Below, in pieces: positions 49,007 through 55,896 of a stretch of DNA of 64,000 nt. The position numbers were made by a program, and so were the translations under genes. The DNA is from Candidatus Scotarchaeum otlingeri (GTDB lineage Archaea > Thermoproteota > Nitrososphaeria > Geothermarchaeales > JDFR-13), in NCBI GenBank assembly GCA_002011075.2, contig MTMA02000006.1:1604599-1668598 (forward strand). The letters run 5' to 3'. Position 1 is the first letter of the stretch, and each line of letters starts with the position of its first letter. The notes beneath the pieces are model-generated. The model was not told the origin of the DNA, ran no database searches, and saw only the letters and a program-made list of their open reading frames with translations.

Positions 49007-49840
49007 CTAGCCGTATATCTTTTTATATAAGAATTTTATCAAATCATCGTATGATATAGGAATTTTCTTATCAAGCTTTCCAGTAAGTGTTTTATAAATT
49101 TTCACGATTAATGGAAGCTCCAATCCTACTTCAGCTAATAATTTCTCATTGATAATAATGTCTCTGGGTTCCCCAGCTGTCACCCCATTTTGCTTCATAA
49201 CTATTATATAATCGGCCAGACCCATAATCATATTTGTATCATGCCAAGTATATATAACACTACCACCATGTCGTACGAAATCTTTGATTGTTTCTATTAT
49301 CTTTAATAAATTATTATATGAAAGTTCGGAGAACGGCTCGTCAAATAACAATACAGAAGGGTCTGTTGAGAGAGCTGATGCTACTGCAACCCTTTTTTTC
49401 TCGCCACCGCTTAATTGATAAGGAGCTTTATAAAGTAGGTGGGTAATGTCTAATTTTTTAGCTAATCTAAATATCTTATCTTCTATCTCGTTATTATTTA
49501 ATCCTAGTTGTCGAGGGCCAAATGCAATTTCGTCATATACTGTCGATGTTATAAGTTGATCTTCCGGTGTCTGAAATACTATAGATACTTCTTTTCTAAA
49601 ATTTTGATACTTGTCGATCTCTGTACCTCTAAATAAAACTTTTCCTCTTGATGGTTTCAACAATCCAGCTAATATTAGAAGCAATGTTGTTTTCCCGGAT
49701 CCATTAGGACCGATTAAAGCAGTTATTTTCCCTGTGGGTATATTGAGTGATATATCTGTAAGAGCTATCGTGCCATCGGGGTAGATATACTTGATATTTT
49801 TACATATGTAAAGCATCTTACTTAACATCATCTTACACAT
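49007..49840 (-). CDS. cbiO: Energy-coupling factor ABC transporter ATP-binding protein (Ni/Co type)
   Basis: ALIGPNGSGKTTLLLILAGLLKP; YQLSGGEKKRVAVASALSTDPSVLLFDEPF. Confidence 0.93.
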   Translation of the reverse strand: MCKMMLSKMLYICKNIKYIYPDGTIALTDISLNIPTGKITALIGPNGSGKTTLLLILAGLLKPSRGKVLFRGTEIDKYQNFRKEVSIVFQTPEDQLITSTVYDEIAFGPRQLGLNNNEIEDKIFRLAKKLDITHLLYKAPYQLSGGEKKRVAVASALSTDPSVLLFDEPFSELSYNNLLKIIETIKDFVRHGGSVIYTWHDTNMIMGLADYIIVMKQNGVTAGEPRDIIINEKLLAEVGLELPLIVKIYKTLTGKLDKKIPISYDDLIKFLYKKIYG

Positions 49841-50639
49841 TCACTCCAGATAATAGGATAATAGAGTATATTACAATTGAAATGATAATTAAAAACATAA
49901 TATCATATTTTGTATATCTGCAGGTTTCCAAGAAGTTTTTCTCGATGTAGAGTTTTCTGGCGGATAGTGTTAATTGTAAACGAAAAGCTCGGTTATATCC
50001 TTTTATAATTATTTCACCCAAGGCTGTTGAAAGTAAATACCATATTAATTTTAAGTCGATATTTCGGTATATTACCCTTGATTTTCTTCCTATCAAGATC
50101 TTGGTAAGTTCCCTTAACATAATGGGAATAAAAATGATTGTTAGTATGAGTATATCCACCCATTTTTTAGGCATCCCTATCCTTATTAGTGTATATTCTA
50201 ACTTCTGGATCCCCATTATGTATATAATTAAGACTAAAATTCCTGAGGATACAGAGGTTCTAAGTAATAAAGGAAGGAGGCCCTTCGCCTTATCTAATAG
50301 TAGAATAGATAACGTTATTGATTTTTTTGTAATAAGTATTTGATAAGTATACATGGGTAAATAGATAAAGGAGACAAATATTGACGTTATAAGAATGATT
50401 TTTAGTAGATATAGAAGATCCATCCGATGAAAAATTGCTAGCGAAATTAATGTAATTAATGATAATATAGGTGCTATGATACCTATAGAAAGCGAAGTAA
50501 CAATAGAAAATGCCATCAATGACACTAAAAGTATGTTAGGGTTCAATTTCGACTTGTAGTGAGGGCTATCATATATTTTCCTGAAAATATCAGAAAAGGA
50601 AATAAGAAAATCAACTTGTGTAATTTTTATATATTTCAT
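49833..50639 (-). CDS. cbiQ: ECF transporter transmembrane protein
   Basis: Multi-TM; operon position; charged coupling-type segment IGRKSRVIYRNIDLK. Confidence 0.85.
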   Translation of the reverse strand: MKYIKITQVDFLISFSDIFRKIYDSPHYKSKLNPNILLVSLMAFSIVTSLSIGIIAPILSLITLISLAIFHRMDLLYLLKIILITSIFVSFIYLPMYTYQILITKKSITLSILLLDKAKGLLPLLLRTSVSSGILVLIIYIMGIQKLEYTLIRIGMPKKWVDILILTIIFIPIMLRELTKILIGRKSRVIYRNIDLKLIWYLLSTALGEIIIKGYNRAFRLQLTLSARKLYIEKNFLETCRYTKYDIMFLIIISIVIYSIILLSGVNV

Positions 50640-50950
50640 TTTGTCTCCGACTCATCTTCTTTTATGTATATTCGAGATGCCGATATCACAGTCCCAATTA
50701 GGATTATGATTAAAACTCCAACCGCGCCCGACAACATATATCCAAGTATTGATGGTAGCCCTGGAAAAGTATAATCAGCAAAAGGCGTCCAGAAAAACTC
50801 ATATGAAGATTCATTTAGACCTAGCTTCTCAGCGGCGATATCTAAAGGTTCATGATAGCCCACCCAATCGGCCAGTATAATTCCAAAAATAGGGCTAATA
50901 AGAAGACAGATTATAACGAATAACAATGATCTTCTACTCAATCTTCCCAT
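50636..50950 (-). CDS. PDGLE-domain/CbiN-like component
   Basis: HEPLDIAAEKLGLNE...PFADYTFPGLPSILGYMLSGAVGVLIIILIG. Confidence 0.85.
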   Translation of the reverse strand: MGRLSRRSLLFVIICLLISPIFGIILADWVGYHEPLDIAAEKLGLNESSYEFFWTPFADYTFPGLPSILGYMLSGAVGVLIIILIGTVISASRIYIKEDESETK

Positions 50951-51602
50951 CTATCAACTTCACCCCAGATCTAGATAAATATAGAAAATCTGGTCTACGT
51001 GATAGATAATCAAATGTTAACGCGGTTATAATTCCCTCGATAATACCAAGTAGAAAATGCCATGTTACCATTATAGGTACCGTAATAGAAATATTAAATC
51101 CAAAGTAAAAGGAATAGCCTATCTCTAATCCACATGCTAGTCCAGCAAGAGTTATCCCCATCCATCCACCTATAAAAGCACCAACCACTCCAGCTCGTTT
51201 AGAATTTGATAATGAAGTTATGAGTTTATAGATATAATATCCTGCTAGAACATCGATAATAGCCATGTTTATTGTATTTGCGGCTAGTGTTGTTATGCCT
51301 CCGTCATGAAAAACTAACGCTTGAATAGCTACGACAATAAACATCGTTAAGAACCCGAGTTGGGGTCCTAATATTATTCCAGCTATGGCTCCTCCAACAA
51401 GATGCAAGCTAGTTCCTCCCGGCAGCGGCCAATTTATCATTTGTGCAACAAATATACTTGCTGCAATAATTGTTATAAGCGGTGCTTCCTCTGTAATCTT
51501 TGAATTCTTCATATATCTAACGTTAAATAATATATAGAATATTAGTATGATGTATGTTATTACTACAGTTATGGGATCTAAAAATCCATCCGGTATATGC
51601 AT
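50934..51602 (-). CDS. cbiM: Ni/Co ECF transporter substrate-binding membrane protein
   Basis: MHIPDGFLDPITVV; PLPGGTSLHLVGGAIAGIILGP; FHDGGITTLAANTINMAI. Confidence 0.95.
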   Translation of the reverse strand: MHIPDGFLDPITVVITYIILIFYILFNVRYMKNSKITEEAPLITIIAASIFVAQMINWPLPGGTSLHLVGGAIAGIILGPQLGFLTMFIVVAIQALVFHDGGITTLAANTINMAIIDVLAGYYIYKLITSLSNSKRAGVVGAFIGGWMGITLAGLACGLEIGYSFYFGFNISITVPIMVTWHFLLGIIEGIITALTFDYLSRRPDFLYLSRSGVKLIDGKIE

Positions 51603-51806: not shown

Positions 51807-52466
51807 TTGATGGAGGCGTTGTTAGTGACTGATTTTAAAACTATGTGGACAGGTAAAGATAAAAAGCTATCAAGCGAAATAAGGAAACAATTATCACCTA
51901 AGAAAAAGCTAAGAGATAAGATACAGCAAGCTACACATTCACTCGAGCTTCAAAATAGAAAATTGGATGTCGCACTTAGAACACTACGAGAGAAGGATAA
52001 ATATTATTACACAAAGGTCCTTGAGGCATTAAGAACACATGATAGAAGCAGAGCGATTCTATATGCAAATGAGTTAGCCGAATTAAGAAAGGCATTAAAG
52101 TCGATTAGTGCAGCTAGACTGGCCTTAGAACAAATTACATTACGACTAAATACAGTTAAGGATATAGGGGATATAATGGTTGCAATATCACCAGCGATGT
52201 CGGTTGTAAAAGGAGTGAGGGAGAATATAATGCATGTCTTGCCTCAAGCGGAAGATGAGCTATATGGTATTCAAGAAATGCTTACGCATATACTTGTAGA
52301 TGCTGAACAAACAGCCGGTATAAATATAGATTTCACAGCTGCTAATGATGAAGCTGAGCGCATACTTAGAGAGGCAGAGGCTCATGTAGAGAGAGAGATG
52401 AAAGAAAAGCTACCTGGAATCCCTGCAGTAGGAGAAGAAGAAAAGCACTCTGAATTTATGTATTAA
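51807..52466 (+). CDS. ESCRT-III/Snf7-family protein (CdvB paralog)
   Basis: Coiled-coil charged protein, KKKLRDKIQQATHSLELQNRKLD...VVKGVRENIMHVLPQAEDELYGIQEML; MIM2-like EKLPGIPA. Confidence 0.88.
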   Translation: MMEALLVTDFKTMWTGKDKKLSSEIRKQLSPKKKLRDKIQQATHSLELQNRKLDVALRTLREKDKYYYTKVLEALRTHDRSRAILYANELAELRKALKSISAARLALEQITLRLNTVKDIGDIMVAISPAMSVVKGVRENIMHVLPQAEDELYGIQEMLTHILVDAEQTAGINIDFTAANDEAERILREAEAHVEREMKEKLPGIPAVGEEEKHSEFMY

Positions 52467-52541: not shown

Positions 52542-53015
52542 CTATGTAGGTTTAAAGTATAATATATCAGATAGGTTACCTGCGCGCTCGTCTCGGGGTT
52601 TTAGTACCGCTTCAACTTCCATATCGATATAAACGTCTTCCGGCTCTACTTCTCTTATATAATGTATTATCCCGCCAACAGCATTTGGTAACGCGATTAA
52701 GGCTATTATTAATGGTTTTTCAAGACGTTCACCGTGATAATCTTCATATACAATTGTAAATGTTTCTATATAGCCTTTTGGCTCCAGCTCTTCATACACA
52801 GTCAACTCAGAAAAACAGTATTCACAGAAAGAACGAGGTGGTACGAATATCACTTCGCATTCATCGCACCTACTTCCCGTTATGACACCCTTGTCCTTCA
52901 AATTTTTCATGAATATTTCTCCTGCTATACCCATTGTATAGATGTGCTTCTTTACCTCCATGTCGCCGAACCATCTTCTTAGTATCCTTGGATCTCCTGA
53001 TTTATCCCAACTCAT
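52542..53015 (-). CDS. DUF35 OB-fold/zinc-ribbon acyl-CoA-associated protein
   Basis: GSRCDECEVIFVPPRSFCEYCFSEL; TFTIVYEDYHGERLEKPLIIALIALP. Confidence 0.93.
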   Translation of the reverse strand: MSWDKSGDPRILRRWFGDMEVKKHIYTMGIAGEIFMKNLKDKGVITGSRCDECEVIFVPPRSFCEYCFSELTVYEELEPKGYIETFTIVYEDYHGERLEKPLIIALIALPNAVGGIIHYIREVEPEDVYIDMEVEAVLKPRDERAGNLSDILYFKPT

Positions 53016-53539
53016 TTCTCTTCACCTCCAGTTATCGGTACAAAGTATTTAATATCGTTTATACTACCTTCTCTTTCAGCTTCAGGCTTCCATACCGCTT
53101 TAACACGCATTCCAAAGACCTTTCTATTTATAACATCCTCTGGATTCACGCCTTCCAGGTAATGGAATAGTCCGGATCCCCCGGTACCTTCTATTTCTAT
53201 CACCGCGATAATAAGCGGTTTTTCGAGTTTTTCACGGGTGGTTGTTATGTAGCTGACCACCGCTGTATTCACGGTTCCTATAGGTTCCACATATATCCAT
53301 TCATCTGTAGCTCTAAAGCAAGATTCACAATACATTCTGGGAGGTATTAAAATCCTTCTACATTTATTACAACGCCGACCTATTAATTTTCCCTTTTTCA
53401 ATTCCACAAGAAAACGGCTAATTGCTTGTCCTGCTGTCCAAGCATATTTAGCGGTGCTACTTCGTTCTACTGTTATCGTCTCATCAAATCTTTTTATTGG
53501 TGTTCCTTTTAACCTAACTTTCTCATCCATGTTTATCAC
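53012..53539 (-). CDS. DUF35 OB-fold/zinc-ribbon acyl-CoA-associated protein
   Basis: GRRCNKCRRILIPPRMYCESCFRATDEW; overlaps its neighbours. Confidence 0.93.
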   Translation of the reverse strand: MINMDEKVRLKGTPIKRFDETITVERSSTAKYAWTAGQAISRFLVELKKGKLIGRRCNKCRRILIPPRMYCESCFRATDEWIYVEPIGTVNTAVVSYITTTREKLEKPLIIAVIEIEGTGGSGLFHYLEGVNPEDVINRKVFGMRVKAVWKPEAEREGSINDIKYFVPITGGEEK

Positions 53540-54717
53540 CCCGCACGTAACACTATAACTGTACCTACTTGCATCAAATCACCCCAAGCTTGGGCCAATC
53601 CAGTATATACCGGCTTTTTTACCTGTCTTTTTCCTGCTTCGCCGCGTAATTGCCAATAAATTTCTGTAACTTTCATCATCCCAGCAGCTGCAATTGGATT
53701 TCCAACTCCCAATAAACCACCGCTTGGATTAATCGGTAAATCACCATCTCGTTCTGTTATACCTTCTCTAGTTAAAATTGGTGCTTCACCTTTTCTAGCC
53801 AACATTAAGCCCTCCATGTGATGTAATTCTTTGTAATCAAAGGGATCATAGACTTCTGCTACATCAATCTCTCTTGCTGGATTTGTTATTCCTGCCATTT
53901 TATATGCCATTCTCGCGGCGCATTCAACATATTTGGGATAAGCTAAATCCCGTCCTGTCCAATGTACAGTATCCAATGACCAACCTACACCTTCTACCCA
54001 GACAGGCGAGTCGGTTATGCGTCTAGCTATATGTTCTGAAACCATTACTACCGCCGCCGCACCATCCGATACAGGACTTATATCCAAGCGTTGAACGGGA
54101 TATACAAGCATTTCACTATTAAGGACATCCTCAACTGTTATTTTCGCTCCTAGTTGAGCCGCCGGATGATCTAAGGCGTTCCTCTTATTCTTAACACTAA
54201 CTCTGGCTATATCTTCTTTTTTAATGTTATACTTGTACATATATCTATGCATCTCTAGTGCAAATATCCATATTAAATTCGGTCCAATCGGTCTTTCTAT
54301 TATAGGGTCCCATATATGAGCAAATACAGATTGAGGATGAGGCATTGCCGGACTCATCTTCTCCTCTGCTACAGCAAGCACTACATCAAACAGTCCTGAG
54401 GCCACATGCCACCATCCGGCTATTGGTGTAAAGACACCAGTTCCACCGCCTACATATACCCGCATAACAGGTTTACCTGTGCCACCTGACCCATCGGCCA
54501 AATATTCACCTTTCATATGTATACCGTCGAAGGCATCGGGCGCGGTGCCTATAACAACGGCATCTACATCCGATAATTCTAATCCAGCTGATTCTAAAGC
54601 CATTTTAGCGGCGGCCCAAGCTAATTCCTTAGGGGTCTCTTTTAGTCGCCTTCGAAATAATGTTAATCCGGCTCCCACTATGGCAACACGGTTTTTCAAA
54701 TTTATATTCATTTTCAT
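53536..54717 (-). CDS. Thiolase-like protein lacking canonical catalytic residues
   Basis: INPSGGLLGVGNPIAAAGMMKVTEIYWQLRGEAGKRQV and thiolase-fold N-terminus; MRVYVGGGTGVF where a Cys is expected. Confidence 0.88.
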   Translation of the reverse strand: MKMNINLKNRVAIVGAGLTLFRRRLKETPKELAWAAAKMALESAGLELSDVDAVVIGTAPDAFDGIHMKGEYLADGSGGTGKPVMRVYVGGGTGVFTPIAGWWHVASGLFDVVLAVAEEKMSPAMPHPQSVFAHIWDPIIERPIGPNLIWIFALEMHRYMYKYNIKKEDIARVSVKNKRNALDHPAAQLGAKITVEDVLNSEMLVYPVQRLDISPVSDGAAAVVMVSEHIARRITDSPVWVEGVGWSLDTVHWTGRDLAYPKYVECAARMAYKMAGITNPAREIDVAEVYDPFDYKELHHMEGLMLARKGEAPILTREGITERDGDLPINPSGGLLGVGNPIAAAGMMKVTEIYWQLRGEAGKRQVKKPVYTGLAQAWGDLMQVGTVIVLRAG

Positions 54718-54723
54718 AATTAT

Positions 54724-55896
54724 TTACACCTCCTCATTACTTAATACCACTACTGCCCCTGTGGCAGTCGGAATATCTCTCCATGATTGTACAACACATC
54801 TTTTAACACCCTTCACTTGTCTACCTACAGCTTCTCCTCTTAACTGTAATGTAGCCTCAAGAAGTTTAATTAGTCCGCCGGCTTCTAACCCATGGCCTAT
54901 GCCTATGAAACCACCACCGGGATTGACAGGCAATGGGCCATTCCTATTAAATTCTCCTCGTTCAAGATCTAAGTGCGATGAGTATCTATTTGATAATTTT
55001 AGCGCCTCAACATGCATCAGTTCTTTATAGCTGAATTTATCGTCTATCTCCGCTAAATCTATCTGTTTCTTTGGATCTTCAATACCGGCTAGTCGATAAG
55101 CCATATCCGCGGCTATTCTTGCATAAAGGGCTTCACCAAAGTTTCTGGTCTCTATATAATTTGTCTCTGTTGCCCAGCCCACACCCTCTATCCATATTGG
55201 ATTATCAGACAATTTTTTAGCTTTGTCCTTAGTAGCTAACACAAATACTATTGCTACGTCGATAAGTGGCGCTATATCCATTACAGATAAGGGGTATACT
55301 ACATATTTTGCTTCAAGTATTTCGTCAACTGATAATTTTGATCCATAGCTGGCGAGTGGATTGGTTATCGCGTTTCTTTTATTTTTTTCCACAATCATGG
55401 CCAGATGTTCCCTTCCGACGCCAGAGGTGAGCATGTAATAGTTGGCTTCTAGACCCGCCAAATAGTAAGGGTGGGCGTCTATGTGGCTTGTATATAAGGG
55501 GTCAAAACCAAAATTCATAATTTCATGGAAAGTTAGAATGTCGCTGGCTTTACTATGTGCTTCCACAACCACTGTGTCAAACAGCCCTGTTTTAATTTTC
55601 ATATAGGCGGAGGCTATTCCTTGTAAACCATCTCCAGCTACGGTGTAAACAGGCTTTAGGACGCCTCCTAATTGATCTGGCATGAATTCATCTGTAATAC
55701 TGATGCCCGCCCAGTAATCTTCTTCACATGTAACAAAAGCATCAATATCTTTTCTTGGATCTAGGTCTCCAGCATCTTCATATGCGGATACTGCCGCCTC
55801 AAACGCCATTTCTCTGAAGGATGCTTCGAGGGTTACAGGAGAGAAACCATACCAACCAACGCCGATTATTGCTACATCACTCAACAGAGACACCAA
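54724..55896 (-). CDS. Thiolase-like protein lacking canonical nucleophilic Cys
   Basis: PVNPGGGFIGIGHGLEAGGLIKLLEATLQLRGEAVGRQV; VYTVAGDGLQGIASAY where a Cys is expected. Confidence 0.88.
   Translation of the reverse strand: MVSLLSDVAIIGVGWYGFSPVTLEASFREMAFEAAVSAYEDAGDLDPRKDIDAFVTCEEDYWAGISITDEFMPDQLGGVLKPVYTVAGDGLQGIASAYMKIKTGLFDTVVVEAHSKASDILTFHEIMNFGFDPLYTSHIDAHPYYLAGLEANYYMLTSGVGREHLAMIVEKNKRNAITNPLASYGSKLSVDEILEAKYVVYPLSVMDIAPLIDVAIVFVLATKDKAKKLSDNPIWIEGVGWATETNYIETRNFGEALYARIAADMAYRLAGIEDPKKQIDLAEIDDKFSYKELMHVEALKLSNRYSSHLDLERGEFNRNGPLPVNPGGGFIGIGHGLEAGGLIKLLEATLQLRGEAVGRQVKGVKRCVVQSWRDIPTATGAVVVLSNEEV

Follow-up and report, generated by a model that had tools for sequence, protein, structure and literature searches.

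A conserved archaeal operon of two thiolase-like proteins without catalytic Cys and two DUF35 proteins: a candidate heteromeric acyl-CoA retro-aldolase

Here we describe a group of four genes in a 64,000-nucleotide stretch of the genome of Candidatus Scotarchaeum otlingeri (contig MTMA02000006.1, positions 1,604,599 to 1,668,598; hereafter the window), which belongs to an archaeal assembly of 1.69 Mb in six contigs that is 88% complete. An earlier note on this DNA described four tightly packed genes, two coding for thiolase-like and two for DUF35 proteins, and indeed all four open reading frames are present, on the minus strand. In coding order they are:

T2, 54724..55896, minus strand: PRK06066 family, thiolase fold but no catalytic Cys; proposed as a partner of T1 that is itself non-catalytic.
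T1, 53536..54717, minus strand: PRK06065 family, again a thiolase fold with no catalytic Cys; proposed to be the subunit that carries out the aldolase reaction.
D1, 53012..53539, minus strand: second zinc-ribbon/OB-fold DUF35 protein.
D2, 52542..53015, minus strand: DUF35 protein with zinc ribbon and OB fold, orthologous to SSO2064 (PDB 3irb); it probably serves as a scaffold or binds coenzyme A (CoA).

D2 and D1, as well as D1 and T1, overlap by 4 bases, and a gap of 6 bases separates T1 from T2; given this tight spacing, the four genes are probably transcribed together, as a single transcript. The earlier note linked each thiolase-like protein to a DUF35 protein of its own. This was overstated, since the actual order is T2-T1-D1-D2 and a one-to-one pairing is unsupported by it.

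T1 scores 755.4 bits against the NCBIfam family PRK06065 (NF004721, cut-off 455) and T2 545.3 bits against PRK06066 (NF004722, cut-off 516). Both families go by the name 'thiolase domain-containing protein' and nothing more, and the Pfam thiolase C-terminal models also match both proteins. T1 is strongly conserved, with a mean identity of 77% among 30 orthologs and 176 of its 393 positions invariant, none of them a Cys. Compared with a thiolase, its active site has Gly91 instead of the nucleophilic Cys, YDPF (with Tyr290) instead of HDCF and GNP (with Asn340) instead of GHP, while AWGDL stands at the C-terminal catalytic site. Gly91, Tyr290, Pro292 and Asn340 are each found in 79 of 80 sequences, the single exception apparently being a canonical paralog gathered by the script. 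The absence of a thiolase nucleophile from T1, pointed out in the earlier note, is thus a family trait and not an error in one sequence, and its further remark that the GHP His is replaced by Asn also holds across the family, as does, with no Cys invariant among the orthologs, the lack of a conserved C-terminal catalytic Cys. As alternative nucleophiles we considered Cys53 and Cys110, which are frequent in other T1 proteins, but these are Ala and Phe in the T1 of the window and were rejected.

Tyr290 aligns with Tyr294 of TcLtp2 (6ok1) and with Tyr302 of CtSal, the catalytic Tyr that PMC12329534 describes as essential by mutation in these aldolases. According to the same paper the catalytic residues of TcLtp2 are Tyr294 and Tyr344 and those of CtSal are Tyr302 and Cys304; in CtSal, Gly takes the place of the nucleophilic Cys, and the residue at the position of Tyr344 is Gln (PMC12329534). 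In our alignment the GGG loop of TcLtp2 occupies the nucleophile position. Tyr344 stands opposite Asn340 of T1, as indicated by the residue spacing from a common GG motif and by the phmmer end pairing (340/344); the MAFFT alignment has a gap two columns downstream, with the same residues still opposite each other. Of the catalytic tyrosines of Ltp2, whose conservation had been raised in the earlier note, T1 therefore keeps Tyr294 (as Tyr290) and lacks Tyr344 (Asn340). By these alignments T1 has the aldolase base, lacks the nucleophile and carries an amide at the position that is Gln in Sal. Maximum-likelihood trees place T1 and T2 outside the Ltp2/Sal clade (support 100/100) and outside the Cys thiolases, which excludes direct membership of the Ltp2/Sal family; these trees are unrooted, making gain and loss of the Cys indistinguishable, and long branches blur the placement of the Ltp4 types.

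T2 has diverged further. It lacks the thiolase catalytic residues, as had been noted from the window sequence (the nucleophile, the HDxF/NEAF motif and the C-terminal site are all missing), and it is variable at sites that are fixed in T1. Its mean identity of 56%, against 77% for T1, suggests a partner subunit. The His of its GIGHG motif, reported earlier as retained, is present in the window sequence but is not a family trait, being found in only 15 of 73 T2 sequences, and for want of conservation we rejected a functional role for it. The AlphaFold2 model of T2, made from an 11-row alignment, has a predicted local distance difference test score (pLDDT) of 86 and a confident thiolase fold; its best Foldseek match is 6esq_A, with a template modelling (TM) score of 0.88, and its closest folds are archaeal and SCP2 thiolases.

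Both DUF35 proteins exceed the curated Pfam cut-offs, D2 with 43.2 bits for PF01796 and 34.3 bits for PF12172, and D1 with 35.7 and 33.2 bits, respectively. Each contains an intact four-Cys ribbon, in agreement with the earlier note: C-x2-C-x10-C-x2-C, with the spacing of the zinc-binding Cys of SSO2064 (Cys49/52/63/66; PMC2954200). The best PDB match of D2 is 3irb, which is SSO2064 of S. solfataricus (E=3.7e-31), and D1 matches both 3irb (E=1.3e-14) and 6ok1_B, the DUF35 domain of ChsH2 (E=4.3e-5). SSO2064 and the D2 of a Sulfolobus operon copy share 81% identity. On sequence grounds D2 is orthologous to SSO2064, whose structure was the first solved for a DUF35 protein.

In the examined Thermoproteota loci the genes keep the order T2-T1-D1-D2, and the operon also occurs in Bathyarchaeota, Thorarchaeota and Archaeoglobales, with a T1 identity of at least 71% in the 80 best loci. 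Automatic gene calling recovered the complete order in 58 of 79 loci; contig ends and mis-called overlapping frames account for many of the remaining 21. T1 has at least 510 relatives, and the closest among the matches listed, a Candidatus Geoarchaeota record, is 86% identical. T1 was above the cut-off in 59 of 300 Thermoproteota genomes and T2 in 41; both are missing from one large family, probably that of the ammonia oxidisers, which belongs to the same class. Two loci from bins labelled Anaerolineales and bacterium (L141 and L158) encode a T1 more than 70% identical to archaeal T1, and these contigs are probably mis-binned archaeal DNA.

In the flanks of the operon we counted 30 acyl-CoA dehydrogenase genes, against 1.7 expected from genome density. 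Their position is downstream of the operon in Pyrobaculum and Archaeoglobales and upstream of it in Sulfolobaceae, and in soil Bathyarchaeota they lie on the opposite strand; with such varied placement the association probably arose more than once. Further neighbours are genes for an AMP-forming acyl-CoA ligase and an enoyl-CoA hydratase. In six Bathyarchaeota-type loci the operon adjoins methylmalonyl-CoA mutase, an enzyme of propionyl-CoA metabolism, and MeaB. This gene context supports a role in acyl-CoA catabolism. In one genome (locus L167), which we take to be that of Sulfolobus acidocaldarius, the order is acyl-CoA dehydrogenase-T2-T1-D1-D2 with a divergent acyl-CoA synthetase gene beside it, matching saci_2230-2235 by gene order. 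These genes are reported to belong to one co-regulated group (PMC8578740), and saci_2231-2235 to be upregulated on overfeeding; the two thiolase-like genes bear the annotation acetyl-CoA acetyltransferase there (PMC11486757). D2 is followed directly downstream, on its own strand (L167 1582-3989), by what appear by eye to be genes for the two subunits of a 2-oxoacid:ferredoxin oxidoreductase of the indolepyruvate type, which may hint at amino-acid-derived acyl-CoAs in S. acidocaldarius.

Other thiolase-like genes are found in the genome under study. A canonical Cys/His thiolase gene at C6:1054470 is followed by genes for a DUF35 protein and an acyl-CoA dehydrogenase and by a 666-amino-acid frame with a 3-hydroxyacyl-CoA dehydrogenase domain. 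A second Tyr-type pair lies at C6:951-954 kb; the genes there run T2'-T1'-DUF35-MaoC hydratase-acyl-CoA dehydrogenase-acyl-CoA ligase (AMP-ligase), and no 3-hydroxyacyl-CoA dehydrogenase gene was found in the surrounding 18-kb region. A thiolase requires a 3-keto group and so needs this dehydrogenase, whereas an aldolase does not. The second pair reads YDAF and NP, and its cluster (C6:942000-960000; L160 5283-12437), which also includes a hotdog thioesterase, resembles the steroid igr operon in gene content. Yet another non-canonical variant is a DUF35-linked thiolase-like protein at C6:1306436-1307916 (L002, L010), which has Glu for the nucleophilic Cys (DAAEASSG) and INDDY in place of HDCF, with GHP retained; ST0096 (4yzo) has Ser roughly where this protein has Glu.

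How might these four proteins work together? On balance we lean towards the view, largely by analogy, that T2-T1-D1-D2 encodes a heteromeric CoA-dependent retro-aldolase, with T1 as the catalytic subunit and T2 as its partner. In the proposed complex the thiolase-fold pair T1/T2 would be flanked by D1 and D2. With Gly91 at the nucleophile position no acyl-enzyme would form on T1; instead, Tyr290 would deprotonate the 3-hydroxyl of a 3-hydroxyacyl-CoA and the C2-C3 bond would be cleaved, giving an acyl-CoA (acetyl- or propionyl-CoA) and an aldehyde or ketone. With T2 the dimer would be complete, and so, probably, would the substrate pocket. D1 and D2 could clamp the pair and aid CoA binding or substrate hand-over, on the model of Ltp2-ChsH2 and Sal-Shy, which assemble as DUF35-thiolase-thiolase-DUF35. 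Such an enzyme would act after acyl-CoA ligase, acyl-CoA dehydrogenase and enoyl-CoA hydratase, bypassing 3-hydroxyacyl-CoA dehydrogenase. Branched substrates are suggested by methylmalonyl-CoA mutase and by the parallel with the actinobacterial pair Ltp3/Ltp4, to which we return below. The earlier note had left room for one or two complexes; as all four genes travel together, two are less likely than a single heteromeric one.

Several observations weigh against this proposal. T1 lacks the known proton donors, having Asn340 at the position of Ltp2 Tyr344 and Pro292 at that of the Sal Cys and the Ltp2 His, and the Tyr and Gly that it has in common with Ltp2/Sal may be convergent or ancestral. 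Its AlphaFold2 model, built with 8 close orthologs, reached a pLDDT of 39, and the thiolase fold of T1 was assigned from its sequence. As for the context, the acyl-CoA dehydrogenase counts are phylogenetically non-independent, the operon's neighbours within the window include no acyl-CoA metabolism genes, and in S. acidocaldarius 3-hydroxyacyl-CoA dehydrogenases are encoded about 12-26 kb from the operon. Finally, we found no measurement in the literature of the activity of isolated Ltp3/Ltp4.

Could T1 be a thiolase or acyltransferase after all, either an acetoacetyl-CoA thiolase or a C-acylase of the PhlABC type, working with an unusual nucleophile? The thiolase fold, the DUF35 partners, the thiolases nearest to T2 in fold and the public annotation as acetyl-CoA acetyltransferase (PMC11486757) would fit, and in PhlABC, too, two thiolase-like proteins, one active and one inactive, are combined with a DUF35 protein (PMC2954200). 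Nevertheless, the Cys is retained in PhlC and in the archaeal thiolases, whereas T1 has no invariant Cys and none near the nucleophile site, and its His is Asn in 79 of 80 sequences; since the genome also holds a separate canonical DUF35-linked Cys/His thiolase with a dehydrogenase, we regard this explanation as very improbable, which supports the earlier note in setting acetoacetyl-CoA thiolase aside. A non-catalytic or regulatory complex, in which both thiolase-like proteins are dead and serve in ligand binding or an RNA-related role, would account for the loss of thiolase catalysis in T1 and T2. It is doubtful, however, given that the active site of T1 holds some of the residues best conserved between archaeal phyla, as one would expect in an enzyme, and given the metabolic gene context; the precedent here is the DUF35 protein Trf, which functions in translation (PMC6996347).

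It is also unlikely, though somewhat less so, that this pocket carries out other chemistry on CoA esters: hydrolysis, isomerisation or the decarboxylation of, for example, malonyl-type or 3-oxo esters. TbSLP (YDCF) slowly decarboxylates malonyl-CoA, whereas CtSal is without malonyl-CoA decarboxylase activity (PMC12329534). The absence from T1 of the expected aldolase proton donor speaks for such chemistry, and the context, a dehydrogenase/hydratase series ending at 3-hydroxyacyl-CoA, speaks against it. So does the Tyr290/Asn340 combination, which differs from the His/Asn pair of decarboxylating condensing enzymes. Alternatively, the complex may perform the same aldol chemistry in the synthetic direction, joining an acyl-CoA enolate to an aldehyde or ketone to make branched 3-hydroxyacyl-CoAs. 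Aldol chemistry is reversible, and the rise of the S. acidocaldarius genes under overfeeding was linked by its authors to fatty acid storage (PMC11486757). Sequence alone cannot fix the direction, but the flanking acyl-CoA ligase, acyl-CoA dehydrogenase and methylmalonyl-CoA mutase favour degradation and leave synthesis with a rather small chance.

Returning to the retro-aldolase, a wider and more tentative picture is possible. The operon may represent an ancient archaeal enzyme, spread from Thermoproteota to Asgard archaea and Archaeoglobales, that cleaves branched 3-hydroxyacyl-CoAs, with branched amino acids or isoprenoid chains as their source, and releases propionyl- or acetyl-CoA. It would be a four-protein version in which the dimer and the DUF35 pair are each split into distinct subunits, with a Tyr/Gly site that arose outside the Ltp2/Sal line and with Ltp3/Ltp4 as a relative. 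Genes annotated as acetyl-CoA acetyltransferase abound in archaea and enter models of their fatty acid, mevalonate and carbon-fixation pathways. This operon is among the most conserved of the genes so annotated, but ordinary thiolase chemistry is ruled out by the residues at its active site. If our proposal is true, archaea could get past branched acyl-CoAs at which ordinary beta-oxidation comes to a halt, a purpose would be found for SSO2064, whose structure dates from 2010 and came with no function attached, and the thiolase fold would have yielded aldolases beyond steroid degradation. The families are already catalogued and one structure is known. S. acidocaldarius, a genetically tractable host of the operon, would allow the idea to be tested directly.

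Two further observations concern the surroundings of the operon in the window, both made by eye. A helical protein encoded next to D2 on the opposite strand resembles ESCRT-III/CdvB (51807-52466). Four genes at 49007-51602 resemble a cobalt/nickel energy-coupling factor transporter set of the CbiMNQO type.

Among known systems, the orthologs of D2, T1 and T2 are SSO2064 (3irb), PRK06065 and PRK06066, respectively; SSO2064 has a name and a solved structure, PRK06065 and PRK06066 have names only, and none has an assigned function. Nor did our literature search find a functional assignment for SSO2061-2063 or their orthologs. The archaeal thiolase/HMG-CoA (3-hydroxy-3-methylglutaryl-CoA) synthase/DUF35 complex also combines an archaeal thiolase with DUF35 and contains the nearest fold of T2, but it retains Cys, HDCF and GHP and has HMG-CoA synthase as a partner. 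The PhlABC acyltransferase, for all its likeness in subunits, depends on the Cys of PhlC. The complex of Ltp2 and ChsH2, which the earlier note took as its model, has the thiolase fold, the DUF35 partner, a Gly-rich loop for the Cys, the Tyr of YDxF and a context of acyl-CoA dehydrogenase and MaoC genes. The Novosphingobium Ltp2 operon, whose last gene matches 6ok1 with E=3.7e-174, has the content ligase-acyl-CoA dehydrogenase-MaoC-DUF35-aldolase, like the second Tyr-type cluster. On the other hand, Ltp2 has Tyr344 where T1 has Asn340, the His of YDHF where T1 has Pro, and a homodimeric thiolase part, and it belongs to a separate clade; the aldolase part of that suggestion therefore stands by analogy, through the Tyr base and the context, and Ltp2 itself is not the right analogue. 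Sal-Shy (CtSal, 9myr) resembles T1 in the Gly at the Cys position, the catalytic Tyr in YDxx and an amide (Gln for Asn), but has Cys304 where T1 has Pro292 and also lies in a separate clade.

A better parallel comes from actinobacteria. In Tsukamurella and Streptomyces the gene order is double DUF35-PRK07937-PRK08313, and from family names, lengths and gene order we infer that PRK07937 is Ltp4 and PRK08313 is Ltp3. Two actinobacterial clusters (L170 2916-6152 and L171 2984-6161) show two fused DUF35 domains beside Ltp4-like and Ltp3-like genes. A catabolic cluster on the Rhodococcus qingshengii plasmid pLP1 (L078 7090-9688) combines mycofactocin-coupled short-chain dehydrogenases/reductases, two acyl-CoA dehydrogenases and two MaoC proteins with a short T2-like protein (annotated as hypothetical), a T1-like protein (YAPF) and DUF35. 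T1', the catalytic-type member of the second pair, joins the actinobacterial PRK08313 proteins with support 96/92, whereas T1 and T2 miss the PRK08313 and PRK07937 thresholds (280.7 against 514 bits and 114.9 against 419 bits). To our knowledge these archaea do not degrade sterols. Ltp3/Ltp4 are described in PMC6593523 and PMC7807495 as aldol lyases for C24-branched sterols, after Rhodococcus gene studies. Ltp3 belongs to a clade distinct from that of T1 and has Val for the Asp of YD, and the two DUF35 domains, which are separate proteins in the archaeal operon, form one fused protein in actinobacteria. Still, Ltp3 has Gly at the Cys position, YVPF and NP, so that Gly, YxPF and NP are common to it and T1, and in both systems a catalytic-looking protein (Ltp3) and a diverged one (Ltp4) form an adjacent pair, with two DUF35 domains and with ligase genes nearby. 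By this analogy, Ltp3/Ltp4 with its fused double DUF35 would be the closest functional analogue of T1/T2, better than Ltp2.

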